From Limisphaerales bacterium (lineage in GTDB: Bacteria > Verrucomicrobiota > Verrucomicrobiia > Limisphaerales > BOG-1460): a stretch of DNA of 34,551 bases. A program made the translations under genes and the position numbers. The DNA lies in assembly GCA_003159675.1 (NCBI GenBank), contig PLQC01000129.1, forward strand, positions 1 to 34,551, given 5' to 3'. The notes beneath the pieces are model-generated. The model worked only from the letters and a program-made list of their open reading frames with translations. It searched no databases and was not told the DNA's origin. Every line of letters starts with the position of its first letter. The stretch's first letter is position 1. Of this stretch, positions 2,443 through 18,375 are shown piece by piece.

Positions 2443-3186
2443 TTATTTTCCAGCCAGGGCGGCGGCGAGATGCCGTAATTCACCGGCCACATCCGCTTGG
2501 TCCGAAAGCGTCTGTGAAATCTCCTCGCGATATATTTCGCGGAATCGTTTCCGCAGCCGATGCACCGCTACGCGAGCCGCTCCTTCGTTCATGCCGAGGC
2601 GAGATGCCACTGTTACATAATCAATCGCTCCAGGCGCAGCCATGAGGCAACCCTTGAGCGCCTCAAAATCGCCGGGTTTTCCTGCCGCCGCAAATTCTGC
2701 GCGCAGCCGATTCACCGTCAAATCAAGTAACGTCAATGCCCACTGTTTATCGAAAGTTTCGTCCGCAGCAAGCGTGGCCGAATGATCGGCGGCATAGCGA
2801 CTTTCGGCGAATTCCGTGTCAAACGGCACCTGTGATTGGCCGCCGCCGCGACGTTGGGCGGAAGCCCGCCGCCATTCCTTGCTCATGAAGTTTTTCAACG
2901 CCACGATCAGGAACGTCCGCAACTTGCCTTTTTCGCGGTCGGCGGAATCCAGCCAGCGTTTTTCGAGCAGGCGGCAGAAGAATTCCTGCGTGAGGTCTTG
3001 CGCGTCGTGTGGCGATTGACCGCAACGGCGGACGTAAGCGTAAAGCGGATACCAGTAGGCGCGGCAGAGGGCTTCCAGCGCCTCCGCCGATTCTGGCGCG
3101 TCCTTCCGTGTCGCTGCCAATACCAGCGACCATCGTGTGTGCGGAAAGATTCGCGGCGCTTCGTTGGATGAAGTGAGGCTGCTCAT
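2443..3186 (-). CDS. ECF-type RNA polymerase sigma factor linked to a Ser/Thr kinase
   Basis: A 247-residue sigma-70 family regulator. The N-terminus contains FPHTRWSLVLAATR, which I associate with the sigma group found beside Ser/Thr kinases in Planctomycetes and Verrucomicrobia. Region 2 is represented by DAQDLTQEFFCRLLEKRWL and the following basic helix (LRTFLIVALKNFMSKEWRRA). Region 4 is the helix-turn-helix DYVTVASRLGMNEGAARVAV followed by HRLRKRFREIYREEI. The start at 3186 (MSSLTSSNEAP) was chosen because the residues encoded upstream to 3270 do not look like a sigma N-terminus. The kinase gene follows at 48 bases, and no anti-sigma gene is visible, so phosphorylation by the kinase is the likely control. 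The family assignment is firm; the partnership is inferred from gene order. Confidence 0.9.
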   Translation of the reverse strand: MSSLTSSNEAPRIFPHTRWSLVLAATRKDAPESAEALEALCRAYWYPLYAYVRRCGQSPHDAQDLTQEFFCRLLEKRWLDSADREKGKLRTFLIVALKNFMSKEWRRASAQRRGGGQSQVPFDTEFAESRYAADHSATLAADETFDKQWALTLLDLTVNRLRAEFAAAGKPGDFEALKGCLMAAPGAIDYVTVASRLGMNEGAARVAVHRLRKRFREIYREEISQTLSDQADVAGELRHLAAALAGK

Positions 3187-3282
3187 GGAAATATCGTATC
3201 CAGATGAATTACCGGAAACGAGGTGGTTGTTACAGAAGAAGTGTGAGAAAGTTGCCCCTCTCAAACGCAATTGATAATCACC

Positions 3283-5660: not shown

Positions 5661-6291
5661 CTTAGTGCATTTAATAATCGTGTTCGGAAGCCTAACGAAC
5701 TGAGCCACGCCGGGCCAAAGATGTCAACCGCGACCACACGCGACTTCCCGTAAAATCTGTACAACTACAGCGTCTTCTTCCCTGCTGCCTTTGCCTTCGC
5801 CCCTCTCGCTTTGGCCAGCTCAGAGAGGCGGTTGCGCGCTGCTGCCGAGGAAACGGTGAAGCTTTGCGGTAAGAGTGTGAATTTGATCCTTGATTGCGGC
5901 AGCCCGTCGCAACTGATCCGGTGATAAGTCTGTTACGTTCATAGGGTGGCTAATCAGCCACATGGGGCCAAGAGAGTCAAGCAGGACAATTGAAGCACGC
6001 ACAGGACGAGTTGACTCAAATTAAAAGACACCGGGGAGGGGAAACTGGGGGGAGGCGAAAAGTTTCGATCGCACCATGAATTGGCTCGCCATGGACTACA
6101 GTTTGTGCCAGTTTGTGAAGAGGTTGTCTGATGTTTTGTGGTGCCGTGCACTTCAAATCAAATGCCTGGGCTGCTGGATTTCGGACAGGGACTCGACAGA
6201 ATCGGATAAGCAATTCGGCCTGACAATCCTTGCAATGCCACCTATGAGTTTCAGCAGCCTGCCTGTTCCCCCAGGAAACCCGGACTGCGTC
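5661..6291. other. Gene-poor stretch between divergent permease and GH44 genes
   Basis: This roughly 630-base gap lies between the minus-strand permease start and the plus-strand GH44 start, so it should hold promoters for both. The only coding signal I see is the broken small gene at 5765-5942. A TTGACT at 6011-6016 resembles a -35 box, but no convincing -10 box follows at the right spacing. The plus-strand frame is open from 6076, but the residues it encodes before 6292 do not resemble a protein N-terminus or signal peptide. Confidence 0.5.
5765..5942 (-). pseudogene. Frameshifted small basic-tail protein gene
   Basis: ATG at 5940-5942 opens a short reading frame starting MNVTDLSPDQLRRAAAIKD, a helical segment followed by LTAKLHRFLGSSA, and it stops at 5820-5822. 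Shifting frame near position 5835 instead gives AARNRLSELAKARGAKAKAA and then GKKTL before TAG at 5765-5767. The two pieces together resemble a type of small Verrucomicrobia protein with a helical N-terminus and a Lys/Ala/Arg-rich DNA-binding-like tail ending in AKAKAxGKK. The basic linker normally expected between them is short or missing, so a deletion with frameshift is likely. Alternatively the 40-residue short form may be functional, or the site may be a sequencing error. Confidence 0.5.
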
Positions 6292-8622
6292 ATGACCGGC
6301 GGTTGTTGTTTGGGAATGCGGGCGCCGCGTTGGCTTTCAGTCTTGCTGCTGTTGGCGGGAGTGACCCTCCAGACCGTGGCCCAGATGAATCAGGTTATTT
6401 ACAACGATTCATTGCAGAACGGGTGGATGAATTATGGATGGACGAAAATTGACTATGCCAATACCAGCGTCGTCCATTCCGGTTCCGATTCCATCGCCGT
6501 CACAATCACGAATGGCTATCAGGCGATTTACCTGGGGCACAACTCCTTCGATTCGACGCCTTACACGAATCTGACGTTCTGGATCAGCGGCGGGAGCTCG
6601 GGCGGCCAGCAATTGAACGTGCAGGCGATTGTCGGGGACATGGCTCAATCCGCCGTGTCGCTGTCGGCGTTGGTCACCAACTGGCAGCAAATCACCCTTT
6701 CACTTGCCTCGCTGAATGCCGCCAATCAGCCGAACGCCTCCGGATTCTGGCTTGAGGACCGGACCGGTCTGGCGCAGCCGACGTTTTATCTGGATGACAT
6801 CTCGCTGCTCACCAATGGGGTCGCGACGGCAACCAATACGCCGGTCACCATCGCCGTGGACGCCCAACTGAACCGGCATGCCATCAGCCCTCTGATTTAC
6901 GGAGTGGCTTTTGCCTCCTCAAACCAGCTTTCGGATCTGAACTTCGCGATCAACCGCTCGGGCGGCAACAACGAGACGCGATACAACTGGCAGCTCAGCG
7001 CGCACAACATCGACGCGGATTGGTACTTTGAAAGCGTCGAGGACGGCTCCGCCACGCCAGGGGCGGCCGCTGACGATTTCGTTGCCAATAGCAAGAACGG
7101 CTATGCTCAGGCGATGATCACCATTCCCATGATCGGCTGGACCGCGAAGCTGGGACCCACCCGGAACTCTCTCTGGAGTTACTCGATCGCAAACTATGGT
7201 CCGCAGACCGGCCACGATCCCTACAACGCGGACGCCGGCAACGGCACCGGGACGAACAGCGCCACGCATACCAGTTGGCTTATCACCACCAACAATCCAA
7301 ACGACGCGAATTCACCGGTGGATTCAACTTTCCAGCAGGGTTATGTCCAACACCTGATGAATGTCTGGGGTTCATCCACCAACGGTGGCGTGCGGTATTA
7401 CCTCATGGACAACGAACACAGCATCTGGTTCGAGACGCACCAGGACGTCCATCCGGCGGGACCCAGAATGCAGGAAATCCGGGACAAGATCCTTGATTAC
7501 GCCGGGATGGTGAAATCCAACGACCCCAACGCGCTGGTGTGCGCGCCCGAGGAATGGGGCTGGTCGGGTTACTTCTACAGCGGTTACGACCAGCAAAACC
7601 CCGGATTCCAGGACCGCACCCTCAACGGCGGCTGGGATTACATGCCGTGGCTCCTGAATCAGATCTGGCAGCACGACACCAATACCGGCCGGCGGCTGCT
7701 CGATTACTTCACATTGCACTGCTATCCGCAGGGCGGCGAAAGCGGCGACGATGTGTCCACCACCACCCAACTTTTGCGGAACAAATCCACCCGCCAGTTC
7801 TGGGACACCAATTACGTCGATCAGAGTTGGATCGGGCTACAGCCGACAAACACGATCCTGATGCTCATCCCGCGCATGAAGAACTGGGCGGCGTCCAATT
7901 ATCCCGGCACGAAGATCGGCATCACCGAATACAACTGGGGCGCCGAAACCAACATCAACGGAGCCACCGCGCAGGCGGACATCCTCGGCATATTCGGCCG
8001 CGAAGGATTGGACCTGGCGACGCGCTGGACCACTCCCGCCGCCACTTCACCCACGTACAAATCGATGAAGCTCTATCGCAACTACGATGGCAACAAATCC
8101 GCCTTCGGCGACAACAGCGTCAGCACCTCCGACCCGAACCCCGACATCGTCTCCGCCTTCGCCGCGCTGCGGTCCTCCGACGCGGCGCTGACGGTGATGG
8201 TCATCAACAAGCAGTTGAGCGCCACCGCGACGGTTGCCCTGAGCCTCACCAACTTTTTGGGCGCCGGCACGGCCCAGGTATGGCAGCTCACCTCGGCCAA
8301 TTCCATCAACCGCCTGAGCGACGTCGGTCTGACGGGGAGCACCTTGATCGACACGGTCCCGGCCCAGAGCATCACGCTGTTTGTTCTGCCGGCGGGAACT
8401 CCGCCTTCGCCTCCGGTGCTGACACGGCCGGCCATCAGTTCCACCAACACCTTCTGCTTCTGGTTGAACGGCCAGGCCGGCCAGCGCTATGTGATCCAAT
8501 CCACCGCCGCGTTGCCGAACTGGTCGCCCGTTCAGACGAACACCCTGTCGGGCGGCTCGACCAATTTCGTGTTCCCCATTCCGGCCACGCAGCTATTCTA
8601 CCGGGCGCAATGGGCGCCCTGA
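6292..8622 (+). CDS. Secreted GH44 endoglucanase/xyloglucanase
   Basis: A 776-residue secreted glycoside hydrolase assigned to family GH44, whose members cleave internal beta-1,4 bonds in cellulose and xyloglucan with retention. A signal peptide (APRWLSVLLLLAGVTLQTVAQ) precedes a jelly-roll, carbohydrate-binding-like region (about residues 35-180), then the catalytic TIM barrel starting near VDAQLNRHAISPLIYGVAF. The acid/base candidate is Glu375 in NEHSIWFETHQDVHP and the nucleophile candidate is Glu546 in GITEYNWGAE. Their spacing (171) is close to that recalled for clostridial GH44 enzymes. The C-terminal about 65 residues (AGQRYVIQST...NWSP...FYRAQW) form a small beta domain common at the ends of secreted verrucomicrobial proteins. 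The start at 6292 gives a normal signal peptide; ATG 6316 is an alternative, while 6076 is not credible. A sigma factor gene follows 76 bases downstream. Confidence 0.85.
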   Translation: MTGGCCLGMRAPRWLSVLLLLAGVTLQTVAQMNQVIYNDSLQNGWMNYGWTKIDYANTSVVHSGSDSIAVTITNGYQAIYLGHNSFDSTPYTNLTFWISGGSSGGQQLNVQAIVGDMAQSAVSLSALVTNWQQITLSLASLNAANQPNASGFWLEDRTGLAQPTFYLDDISLLTNGVATATNTPVTIAVDAQLNRHAISPLIYGVAFASSNQLSDLNFAINRSGGNNETRYNWQLSAHNIDADWYFESVEDGSATPGAAADDFVANSKNGYAQAMITIPMIGWTAKLGPTRNSLWSYSIANYGPQTGHDPYNADAGNGTGTNSATHTSWLITTNNPNDANSPVDSTFQQGYVQHLMNVWGSSTNGGVRYYLMDNEHSIWFETHQDVHPAGPRMQEIRDKILDYAGMVKSNDPNALVCAPEEWGWSGYFYSGYDQQNPGFQDRTLNGGWDYMPWLLNQIWQHDTNTGRRLLDYFTLHCYPQGGESGDDVSTTTQLLRNKSTRQFWDTNYVDQSWIGLQPTNTILMLIPRMKNWAASNYPGTKIGITEYNWGAETNINGATAQADILGIFGREGLDLATRWTTPAATSPTYKSMKLYRNYDGNKSAFGDNSVSTSDPNPDIVSAFAALRSSDAALTVMVINKQLSATATVALSLTNFLGAGTAQVWQLTSANSINRLSDVGLTGSTLIDTVPAQSITLFVLPAGTPPSPPVLTRPAISSTNTFCFWLNGQAGQRYVIQSTAALPNWSPVQTNTLSGGSTNFVFPIPATQLFYRAQWAP

Positions 8623-8698: not shown

Positions 8699-10366
8699 AT
8701 GACGAACCTGAGCGACGCCGAACTCCTGCGCGAGTACGCCTCCGGCAATTCCGAGGCAGCCTTCGGCGAAATCGTGCGCCGATACGCGGACGCGGTTCAT
8801 TCCGCGGCGCTCCGGCAGGTGGGGAACGAAGAGCAGGGGCGGGACGTGGCACAATCGGTCTTCGTGGACTTGGCACGCAAGGCGGCCGCTCTCCGTCCAA
8901 ACACGCTGCTCATCGGCTGGCTCTATCGCGGCGTGCGGCTGGCCGCACTGGAACAGGTGCGAAAGGAACAACGCCGACAGCAACGTGAAAGGCAGGCCAT
9001 GGATTTGCACGATCCCGCTCCCGAAACGGCCAACGATTGGAACATCGTCCGTCCCGTGCTGGATGAAGCCATCGGCAATCTTGGTGAAGAAGACCGCGAC
9101 GCACTGTTGCTCCGGTTTTTCAAGAACGAAAGCCTCGCTTCGGTGGGGGCCACGCTCGGCATCAGCGAGGATGCCGCCCAGAAACGGGTTTCGCGCGCCC
9201 TGGGCAAATTGCGTGAATTCCTCGCCGGGCGTGGCATCAATACGACCGCCGCCGCCCTGTCGGCGGCGCTCACAGCCAATGCCGTTCAAGCCGCTCCGGC
9301 CGGCTTCGCCACGTCAATGACGGCCAGCGCACTGGCAAAGGCTGCCGTTGCTACGAGTTCAATGGCTCCCACCCTGAAACTCATTTCCCTCGCCAATATG
9401 AAAACCGCACTGTTGATCCTCGCCTTGGCCGGCGTCGTCGCCGGGCTCACCCTGAAACGAGCGGCCACGCAACACGAATTGCGCGCGGCACGGATCCTGA
9501 CACAGCAACTGGCCGCAGAGAAGGATGCCCTGCGCGCCGCCAATGAACAGCTCGCCATTCAAACCAACGACTTGGAACGCTTGCGCAACGACATGCACGA
9601 AGTGCTCCGGCTCCGCAATGAGGTCAGTCAATTGCGGCGGCAACTGGCCGCAGGGAATAAGCCCGCCAGCGGCTTCGAGACACGATCCATCTCGGACGAT
9701 TCCACGAACAACATTCCCATCTCCGCCGAACCACAGATTAACGTCAGAGCACGATTCATCGTTGCTCCCGCAAGCCTGAACCTCCCGATCGACAACTTGG
9801 GAAACGGGTCTGGAGACTCGAAAATCAAAGCGATCGACCAGGCCCTTCTCCAAGCCGGCGATGCCCAGGACAAGAGTCAATGTGAGGTGACGACGCTTAG
9901 TGGAAACGAGGCACAGATCCAGATGATCCAATCCGTGACAAATGTAAACCCGCAGTCAGGCTTGAGCACCGTTTACACGAATATTGGCGTAACGCTTGAT
10001 GTGTTGCCGAGTTGCCGCACCAATTCGCAATCCATCGATCTGAGCTTTGTCGCGACGGTCAATGAAATAATCGATATCTCTCCTGAACAGGACGGATCGC
10101 AACCCGCGTTTCACAGCCTGGCGATCTCAAACTCGATGACGATTCCGAGCGGCCGGATGGTCATCGTGGCGGGAAAACTTCCCGCTGGCGGACGGTGGAC
10201 GCAGTCGCGCTCCGGCACCGACAGCGTAGAAGCGGGCCCGAGAAATCTGCTGGTCCTTCTGACCCCCACCCTCGTGGACGCCAGCAACCAGGCTCAACCC
10301 CAGCCGGGAAATGGCCCGCAAGCGGGCGGCATCCCCTTGGACACGGGGGTCGGTCCCACACAATGA
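8699..10366 (+). CDS. ECF sigma factor fused to a membrane helix and secretin-like C-terminal domain
   Basis: A 555-residue protein whose first about 185 residues form an ECF sigma factor: region 2 at about 8-95 (LLREYASGNSEAAFGEIVRR, then GRDVAQSVFVDLARKA) and region 4 at about 120-180 (EEDRDALLLRFFKNESLASV, then LGISEDAAQKRVSRALGKLR). An Ala-rich stretch and one membrane helix (about 234-252, MKTALLILALAGVVAGLTL) follow, then a coiled coil (about 255-322, LRAANEQLAIQTNDLERLRN). The last about 200 residues resemble the secretin C-terminal beta domain: YTNIGVTLDVLPS, IDLSFVATVNEI, LAISNSMTIPSGRMVIVAGK and the end motif RNLLVLLTPTLVD. It lacks N0/N1 domains, a signal peptide and the length of a real secretin. 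The helix would place the sigma part in the cytoplasm and the beta domain outside it. It follows the GH44 gene by 76 bases on the same strand. The sigma assignment is firm; the secretin likeness is from motif pattern only. Confidence 0.85.
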   Translation: MTNLSDAELLREYASGNSEAAFGEIVRRYADAVHSAALRQVGNEEQGRDVAQSVFVDLARKAAALRPNTLLIGWLYRGVRLAALEQVRKEQRRQQRERQAMDLHDPAPETANDWNIVRPVLDEAIGNLGEEDRDALLLRFFKNESLASVGATLGISEDAAQKRVSRALGKLREFLAGRGINTTAAALSAALTANAVQAAPAGFATSMTASALAKAAVATSSMAPTLKLISLANMKTALLILALAGVVAGLTLKRAATQHELRAARILTQQLAAEKDALRAANEQLAIQTNDLERLRNDMHEVLRLRNEVSQLRRQLAAGNKPASGFETRSISDDSTNNIPISAEPQINVRARFIVAPASLNLPIDNLGNGSGDSKIKAIDQALLQAGDAQDKSQCEVTTLSGNEAQIQMIQSVTNVNPQSGLSTVYTNIGVTLDVLPSCRTNSQSIDLSFVATVNEIIDISPEQDGSQPAFHSLAISNSMTIPSGRMVIVAGKLPAGGRWTQSRSGTDSVEAGPRNLLVLLTPTLVDASNQAQPQPGNGPQAGGIPLDTGVGPTQ

Positions 10367-16635: not shown

Positions 16636-18375
16636 ATGCCTCCTGTCAAATCATTCGGTGAACGCATTGCGGACGTTCTGGTGGAAGACGGTCTGTTGAC
16701 GCCAAATCAGGTGGCAGAACTGCTCGAGCAGCAGAAAAAGGGCGGCATGCGCCTGTTGAAGCTCATTCTCGAGAAGGCCTATGTGAGCGATCAGGACATG
16801 GCGGTTTGCATGGGCCGTGTGCTGAACACGCCGCCCATCAATCTCTCCCGCATCACGATTCCCGCCGAACTGGCCGAACTGCTGCCCAGCGAGGTCTGCC
16901 ACAACCACAAGATCGTCCCCGTCTCGCGCCTGGAGAACAAATTGTTCATCGCCATGGCCGATCCACTCAACGTGCTGGCCATCGATGATGTCCGGCGCAT
17001 CACGCGGCTGGAAGTGGCCCCTCTGATCGCATCCGAAAAAGCCATCATCGACAAGCTGAACCACCTCGATGCGGCCAAAGGTGGCAGCATGGAGGACATC
17101 ATCGAGGATGCGAAAAAGAAGGCGGATGGCGAGGCGGATGATGGCAATGTCGAACTGGCCCGGGAATCCTTTGAAGAAGTCAACCTGGATCAACTCGCCG
17201 CCTCGAGCGAAGAGGCGCCCGTCATCAAGCTGGCGAATCTGATTCTGGTGCAGGCGATCAAGGACCGTGCCAGCGACATTCATCTGGAGCCTTTCGAGAA
17301 GAACGTGCGATTGCGCTACCGTATTGACGGAGTGCTTGTGGACGCGACCCCACCGCCCAAGCAACTGCAACTGGCGCTGGCGTCGCGATTCAAGATCATG
17401 AGCAGCCTGGATATCGCCGAGCGGCGGCTTCCCCAGGACGGGCGCATGCGGGTCAGAGTGAGCGGCAAGGATTACGATCTTCGCGTGTCGATCATGCCCA
17501 CCGTTCATGGCGAGAAAATCGTGTTACGCGTGCTCGACAAGTCGAATCTTTCCGCGAGCCTGGACAAGCTCGGGCTGGACGCTGATACGTACCAGCAGGT
17601 CAAAGCCGCCGTGGACGCTCCGCATGGTTTGATCCTGGTGACCGGGCCGACCGGTTCCGGCAAGACGACCACTCTCTATTCCATTCTCAACGAATTGAAC
17701 AATCCGATTTACAACATCATCACCGTCGAAGATCCGGTCGAGTTTCAAATCCCCGGCATCAACCAGGTGCCTGTCAGAAAGGAAATCGGGCTCACCTTCG
17801 CCAACGCCCTCCGGTCGATCCTGCGCCAGGACCCCGACATCATCATGATCGGCGAAATCCGCGATACCGAGACTGCGGAAATTGCCATTGAAGCCGCTCT
17901 GACCGGCCACCAGGTGCTGAGCACCATGCATTGCAACGACGCGCCGGGTGCCATCGCCCGCCTGGACGACATGGGCGTGGCGCCGTTTCTGATCTCCTCG
18001 TCGGTGATTCTGACGTGCGCGCAACGGCTCATGCGCCGCATCTGCTCGCATTGCAAGGAACCGGTGACCTATCTGGAAAAGGTGTACCAGGATTTGAACA
18101 TCGACCCGAGCATGTTCGAAGGCGTGACGCTGTATCGCGGACGCGGTTGCGACCGCTGCAAGAATTCAGGCTACTCGGGCCGCATGGCGATCATCGAAGC
18201 AATGACCGTCACGGACGAAATCCGCAAGCTGGTCATTTCGCGCGCCAATTCGCGGGAATTGGGAAAAATCGCCATCGGTCAGGGCATGAGAACGTTGCGT
18301 ATGGTCGCTCTAGATCGCGTGCGTGAGGGCACGTCCACCCTCGAACAGGTGCTCCTGCTGACGGCCGCGCACTGA
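16636..18375 (+). CDS. pilB: PilB/GspE-type assembly ATPase
   Basis: A 579-residue hexameric ATPase of the type IV pilus/type II secretion family, near the usual length. The MshEN N-terminal domain (about 1-150) contains ALEQQKKGG-like and LFIAMADPLNVLAIDDVRR segments. The ATPase core has Walker A GPTGSGKTTT at 337-346 with Lys343, the Asp box and Walker B ILRQDPDIIMIGEIRD ending near 409, and the His box TGHQVLSTMHCNDA. A zinc tetracysteine is formed by Cys470, Cys473, Cys505 and Cys508 (CSHC...CDRC). The expected role is powering pilin or pseudopilin assembly at the inner membrane. It follows the TPR/MshEN gene by 4 bases. PilT, PilC and pilin genes are not in the window, so pilus versus type II secretion cannot be separated; the symbol follows the closer-looking PilB pattern. 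Confidence 0.9.
   Translation: MPPVKSFGERIADVLVEDGLLTPNQVAELLEQQKKGGMRLLKLILEKAYVSDQDMAVCMGRVLNTPPINLSRITIPAELAELLPSEVCHNHKIVPVSRLENKLFIAMADPLNVLAIDDVRRITRLEVAPLIASEKAIIDKLNHLDAAKGGSMEDIIEDAKKKADGEADDGNVELARESFEEVNLDQLAASSEEAPVIKLANLILVQAIKDRASDIHLEPFEKNVRLRYRIDGVLVDATPPPKQLQLALASRFKIMSSLDIAERRLPQDGRMRVRVSGKDYDLRVSIMPTVHGEKIVLRVLDKSNLSASLDKLGLDADTYQQVKAAVDAPHGLILVTGPTGSGKTTTLYSILNELNNPIYNIITVEDPVEFQIPGINQVPVRKEIGLTFANALRSILRQDPDIIMIGEIRDTETAEIAIEAALTGHQVLSTMHCNDAPGAIARLDDMGVAPFLISSSVILTCAQRLMRRICSHCKEPVTYLEKVYQDLNIDPSMFEGVTLYRGRGCDRCKNSGYSGRMAIIEAMTVTDEIRKLVISRANSRELGKIAIGQGMRTLRMVALDRVREGTSTLEQVLLLTAAH

Follow-up and report, generated by a model that had tools for sequence, protein, structure and literature searches.

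An ECF sigma factor fused through a predicted membrane helix and a coiled coil to a secretin-like domain in Limisphaerales bacteria

Secretin core domains form outer-membrane pores. A gene in a Limisphaerales genome, in which a stretch resembling such a domain follows a sigma factor in the same polypeptide, raises the question of what a secretin fold could be doing there. The window, i.e. the whole stretch of DNA analysed (34,551 nucleotides, contig PLQC01000129.1), contains this gene as a single intact frame of 555 codons, which runs from the ATG at 8699 to the stop at 10366. The features of the gene and of its upstream neighbour are collected in Table 1.

Table 1. Positions in the window of the fusion gene, its parts and the adjacent glycoside hydrolase gene
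Feature	Position	Strand	Evidence
Glycoside hydrolase family 44 gene (GH44), co-directional, upstream of the fusion gene	6076..8622	+	PF12891, E 2.4e-62
Whole gene P0001 (sigma, helix, coiled coil, secretin-like), 555 aa	8699..10366	+	frame; same architecture in other genomes
Sigma-70 region 2, residues 25-93	8771..8977	+	PF04542, E 2.7e-7; TIGR02937
Sigma-70 region 4, residues 124-173	9068..9217	+	PF04545, E 3.8e-8; PF08281, E 6.7e-8
Conserved Ala-rich linker, residues ~178-232, motif ANAVQAAPxG	9230..9394	+	
Hydrophobic (membrane) helix, residues ~234-252	9398..9454	+	hydropathy; AF2 model
Coiled coil, residues 253-320, terminal family motif E(V/L)LRLR(N/G)EVxxLRR	9455..9658	+	
Secretin-like module, residues 346-527	9734..10279	+	PF00263 match 9842-10174; predicted fold

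The N-terminal part scored 68.9 bits with the ECF sigma model TIGR02937 (sigma70-ECF), above the cut-off of 42.9, and 49.8 bits with TIGR02989, the model of the Rhodopirellula/Verrucomicrobium sigma family, below the cut-off of 124.55. Hydropathy revealed a single clear hydrophobic helix (residues ~230-255), and in the AF2 model a continuous helix extends over residues 237-319, with low confidence up to about residue 256; the junction between the sigma part and the helix was also modelled with low confidence. The initial annotation, made from the letters alone, had described one 555-codon frame with sigma regions 2 and 4, followed by a lone hydrophobic helix and a coiled coil, and the intact frame, the Pfam and NCBIfam matches, the hydropathy profile and the modelled helix all bear this out. 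No anti-sigma domain of the FecR-like or zinc finger type was matched by Pfam in the fusion protein, even at E ≤10. A search for a sigma-70-type promoter around the fusion gene gave no match either, a result that says little for this phylum.

The stretch beyond the coiled coil had been called secretin-like from its motifs. In Pfam, PF00263 (Secretin) matched residues 382-492 with 33.3 bits (gathering score 27.5, E 4.6e-8), and with E 5.3e-9 when the C-terminal part was scanned alone; the match spans only profile positions 1-121 of 169. The AlphaFold2 model of residues 322-544 (mean pLDDT 78.5) has the order strand, helix, seven strands, and all 40 PDB chains found by Foldseek at E < 0.001 were secretins (GspD, PilQ, InvG, RcpA, pIV and others). 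Structural matches to secretins reached E values down to 1.8e-8 and Z scores up to 12.4 over 130-164 aligned residues. Because the alignment of 52 relatives underlying this model includes pilus secretins, the model is not independent of secretin kinship; the Pfam score is. A PDB sequence search with the module alone returned no secretin, thus the link to secretins rests on profiles and predicted fold. The module begins with QINVRARFIV (residue 346), at the same point at which secretin core domains start, and counterparts of all parts of the secretin core were found in it except the VPxLGxxPxxGRLF stretch. The window module also gave a weak match to Amuc_1098 (E 0.003). Chance occurrence of secretin-like motifs was considered and ruled out by the profile score and the fold. 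For the initial annotation, the lack of both a significant profile match and a predicted secretin-like beta sheet would have refuted the assignment, and both were obtained. Secretin N domains and a signal peptide had been noted as absent, and indeed the N-terminus is occupied by the sigma domain and no Secretin_N match was obtained.

The sigma part and the module were found in one frame in at least nine other genomes of the same order (G008, G018, G024, G026, G032, G042, G214, G217 and G220). Two further carriers are in the named collection (L185, Limisphaerales SJ485, and L194, which is cut by a contig end), so that within this verrucomicrobial group the architecture occurs in at least 11 genomes besides that of the window; L173 (UBA3939) and L186 appear to be repeats of two of the nine carriers and were not counted again. 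All named carriers are Verrucomicrobia. A single-sequence scan of genome contigs gave no match. A frame error or a chimeric assembly is ruled out by the presence of the same architecture in independent genomes: the initial annotation had pointed out that homologues encoded by two separate genes would betray a frame error here, and the homologues proved to be one-frame fusions. The frame in L148, one of the nine, has a stop inside the module, and its product may therefore be short. In G042 the sigma-secretin frame (L050:3445-7002, also L173) runs without a stop into a dihydroxyacid-dehydratase-like protein, which could be due to a fault in the reads or the assembly or else reflect a genuine read-through.

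In 58 genomes of the order more than 100 matches to the protein were obtained, and most of the alignments cover residues 1 to ~325 or less. Their common part, referred to below as the chassis, consists of the sigma domain, the Ala-rich linker (ANAVQAAPxG), the hydrophobic helix and a coiled coil ending in ELLRLRGEVxxLRR, and this end motif is conserved whatever module comes after it. Beyond the chassis the tails differ. Most of the 30 tails scanned with Pfam belong to no known family; clear matches were POTRA in L054 (E 2.1e-10), DUF3738 in L039 and L059 and TPR in L030, while LTXXQ in L036 (just under) and DUF4878 in L022 stayed below the cut-off. DUF3738 was seen on the chassis in additional genomes as well. 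In a phylum-wide sample the chassis extends to further orders and classes; among the matches listed there at E 1e-60 or better, none was a full-length secretin fusion. The sigma-helix-coil unit is a widespread chassis with a swapped C-terminal domain, and the secretin fusion is one member of a large family. With its POTRA tail, L054:3744-4313 is, besides the secretin fusion, a further case of a sigma factor carrying a domain of outer-membrane machinery, and another chassis tail (L028:1245-1862) resembles by eye a secretin N-type domain, with no Pfam match.

The module has a wider distribution than the sigma fusions. With a profile (A2) it was detected in almost all genomes of the order, and most of the matches lie at the ends of proteins ~900-1000 aa long, of which each genome has roughly one. 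Judging by size, copy number and motifs, and by the weak match of the window module to Amuc_1098, these long proteins can be identified as the probable verrucomicrobial PilQ (Amuc_1098 family), Amuc_1098 being an outer-membrane secretin of 907 residues (PMC4960237). The genome carrying the window has four near-complete secretin matches; between its PilQ copy (contig 38) and the window module the identity is 24% (E 4e-10). The module also occurs as the C-terminal domain of M56/BlaR1-type receptor-proteases: M56 and Secretin matches stand together in five Pfam-scanned proteins (L149, L150, L152, L158 and L191), with the Secretin score above the cut-off in all except L149, which is just below. 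In L177 a gene of this type, in which Pfam recognises no M56 core, is situated upstream of a chassis sigma gene, at a distance of 112 bases.

Several of these proteins have additional parts. One M56 peptidase (L158:1919-5614) apparently contains two secretin-like modules, given that PF00263 matches at 454-582 and A2 gives a second match at the C-terminus, and in another (L152:1362-5363) the peptidase precedes a complete secretin match together with an SLBB domain of the polysaccharide-export type. An open-ended frame (L199:3-2990) combines an ExbD-like part and TPR with secretin N-type repeats and a secretin-like module, and a chassis sigma gene follows ~1 kb downstream.

Nine changes of the secretin label have to be assumed on the sigma-domain tree (56 rows), and well-supported branches dictate seven of them. 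In the module tree (70 rows) the sigma-borne modules fall in at least three places: the window module groups with L185 and L194; L147 and L148 together stand next to an M56 module; and five others (L052, L053, L124, L125 and L133) form a clade that is nested among M56 modules. The same five are spread over three parts of the sigma tree, so modules have moved between chassis. Taking into account the label changes in the sigma tree and the scatter in the module tree, the module has apparently been exchanged repeatedly between receptor-like proteins, chassis and M56 proteins alike. A single origin of the fusion is unsupported by either tree, in both of which many deep branches are weak. The window module forms a long branch, and its exact placement is unsure. 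We infer that the module derives from type IV pilus secretins.

Compared with full secretins, the module has undergone losses. The signature VPxLGxxPxxGxLF, which follows the GQT strand in secretins, is absent from the window module; in its VPxLGxxP form it was found in 23 of 27 pilus secretins (PilQ), 4 of 21 M56 modules and none of 12 sigma modules, a count to be read strictly as 0/9, because three of the 12 end early in the profile match. The median distance between TTLSG and LDVLP is 58 residues in PilQ, 40 in the M56 modules and 31 in the sigma modules, and that between GQT and TPTLVD is 46, 32 and 32 residues, respectively. With the signature, the signal peptide and the N domains missing and an inner-membrane helix predicted, it is very unlikely that the sigma fusions form outer-membrane pores.

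Such losses could also mean that the C-terminal part, the remnant of a fused secretin, is decaying and functionless, and the long branch of the window module, its shortened loops and the module dN/dS of 0.55 in the L052/L053 pair (sigma part 0.37) would fit this. We regard it as highly improbable, since in the L185/L194 pair the dN/dS of the module (0.19) is close to that of the sigma part (0.16), the module was acquired repeatedly and open frames are maintained in many genomes. As judged from these substitution ratios, the module appears to be kept by purifying selection.

The sigma part is predicted to be cytoplasmic, and the stalk and the module periplasmic. That the sigma factor is held at the membrane with the module facing the envelope was already proposed in the initial annotation, and it has become more likely, because the C-termini of M56/BlaR1 proteins bear the same module and the same chassis bears other envelope-type modules, among them POTRA, DUF3738 and, just under the cut-off, LTXXQ; what goes against it is the charge pattern of the window protein itself, in which a single K/R is found in the 15 residues that precede the helix and four follow it, the reverse of what the positive-inside rule requires for a C-out orientation. 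The mean net charge of the family (~+1.4 before the helix, ~+0.6 after it) does fit C-out. In some relatives (e.g. L148) the Ala-rich linker is nearly hydrophobic enough for a second membrane helix, and if it were one, the module would be cytoplasmic. Linker and helix would then form a hairpin, with the coil and the module acting inside the cell as a domain for oligomerisation or inhibition. In favour of such a hairpin are the hydrophobic linkers of several relatives and, in the window protein, the bias of the charges that flank the helix. It is nevertheless unlikely, considering that the module is also C-terminal in M56 proteins, a family in which the C-terminal part of BlaR1 is extracytoplasmic, that POTRA and secretin domains are envelope domains and that the family mean charge favours C-out.

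Upstream of the fusion gene, across a gap of 76 bases, lies the GH44 gene, and the two may belong to one operon. Each of the three chassis genes of this genome comes after a glycoside hydrolase gene that runs in the same direction (GH44, GH9 and GH53), the GH9 and GH53 genes being separated from theirs by ~196 and ~732 bases as counted from estimated starts. Thus the link to a cellulase gene made in the initial annotation extends to all three chassis genes of the organism; it does not extend to most relatives inspected, which have other neighbours, such as an aminotransferase-like gene before L050. A conserved operon is ruled out by these differences, and the glycoside hydrolase link is therefore an observation on this genome only. 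We take it as a lead about the organism and not as part of the mechanism. The window also contains another sigma-like gene (Sigma70_r2; 2443-3270, - strand), which adjoins a gene for a Ser/Thr kinase with a C-terminal DUF4019 (127-2394, - strand), and, ~6 kb downstream of the fusion gene, a gene for a GspE/PilB-type ATPase with an MshEN domain (16636-18375, + strand).

Taken together, we think it probable that ECF sigma factor, linker, helix, stalk and trimmed secretin core make up a one-piece transmembrane signalling device that controls a tethered sigma factor. The module would have been taken from type IV pilus secretins, would have lost the pore-forming parts and would now act as a binding or sensing domain, which perceives a change in the periplasm (a ligand, the state of the envelope or a partner protein) and passes the signal through the coiled coil to the tethered sigma part. 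The simplest output would be release of the sigma part by proteolysis, as in IutY; alternatively, a conformational change could let the sigma part engage RNA polymerase at the membrane. The targets may include polysaccharide-degradation genes. Release by proteolysis, envisaged in the initial annotation too, is suggested here by analogy. An M50/site-2 protease gene is present in the genome; proteases of this kind are near-universal, and their presence is hence generic.

The main rival to proteolytic release is action at the membrane. In the manner of the one-component regulators CadC and ToxR, the sigma part would never be released and would work from the membrane once the periplasmic module has formed dimers or oligomers by way of the coiled coil. 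The long conserved coiled coil, whose end motif is kept irrespective of the module, and the lack of a recognisable anti-sigma domain are what one would expect of such a regulator. We consider it possible and the less likely course, because a site-2 protease is available in the genome and because IutY, the sole membrane-extended ECF factor with its activation worked out, uses proteolysis (PMC8999054).

The descent of the module from a secretin core, with the order of strands and helix retained, suggests yet another role, raised in the initial annotation as well, in which it docks into or co-assembles with the secretin ring of a type IV pilus or type II system and reports the state of the ring to the sigma part. 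A coil of ~65 residues could extend well into the periplasm, and the genome itself has the four near-complete secretin matches. Nonetheless, the module is very divergent from the pilus secretin of its own genome, its loops are shortened, the signature is lost and no co-location with secretin genes was seen among the fusions, which makes docking improbable. Similarly doubtful is the more specific proposal that the module recognises the pilus or type II channel by inserting into the ring or capping it, so that the sigma part reads the assembly or activity of the channel, the M56 fusions being a protease-linked parallel. If it were true, an outer-membrane secretion channel would be read directly by a sigma factor across the envelope.

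Returning to the tethered signalling device, two unrelated kinds of signalling proteins, sigma factors and M56 receptors, seem to have taken up a trimmed secretin fold as an interchangeable extracytoplasmic part, and the recurrence of the module on other membrane sensors of these bacteria suggests that it is reused as a signal-receiving part. If so, a secretin fold would have a regulatory role, and the family would provide natural domain swaps for testing how a membrane-tethered ECF factor is switched on when it has no recognisable anti-sigma domain. None of the open-access papers searched was found to describe the fusion of a secretin domain to a sigma factor or to an M56 peptidase.

Sigma factors fused to a membrane-spanning C-terminal extension are already known from IutY and SCO4117 (PMC8999054). 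IutY of Pseudomonas putida, an ECF sigma factor fused to its own membrane-bound anti-sigma factor and activated by proteolysis (PMC8999054), likewise combines an ECF sigma domain, a membrane segment and a periplasmic C-terminal part in one polypeptide (the membrane segment and its orientation being predictions for the window protein), but the window protein has a coiled coil and a secretin-derived domain and no anti-sigma domain of the FecR or zinc type. The actinobacterial groups ECF48, ECF52 and ECF53 (e.g. SCO4117) also have C-terminal membrane extensions (PMC8999054), several hundred residues long and with an outward-facing module, in their case a carbohydrate-binding one; they differ in having a zinc-finger anti-sigma domain and one or two helices, and in phylum and module. 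Planctomycete ECF factors, which were recovered in detergent-soluble fractions (PMC8567305), resemble the fusion as expanded ECF factors of the PVC group with added C-terminal domains (PMC8567305), but with WD40 repeats in place of the secretin module. Verrucomicrobial PilQ (Amuc_1098 family) has the motifs TTLSGRQAQ, LDV(I/L)P and TPT(I/L)(I/V)D in common with the module, but has more N-terminal domains, the VPxLGDxPxxGRLF signature and an outer-membrane location (PMC4960237). The M56/BlaR1-type peptidases are, like the fusion, inner-membrane signalling proteins with the same C-terminal module; in them a multi-pass protease replaces the sigma factor, and several retain a secretin N-type stretch just before the module.
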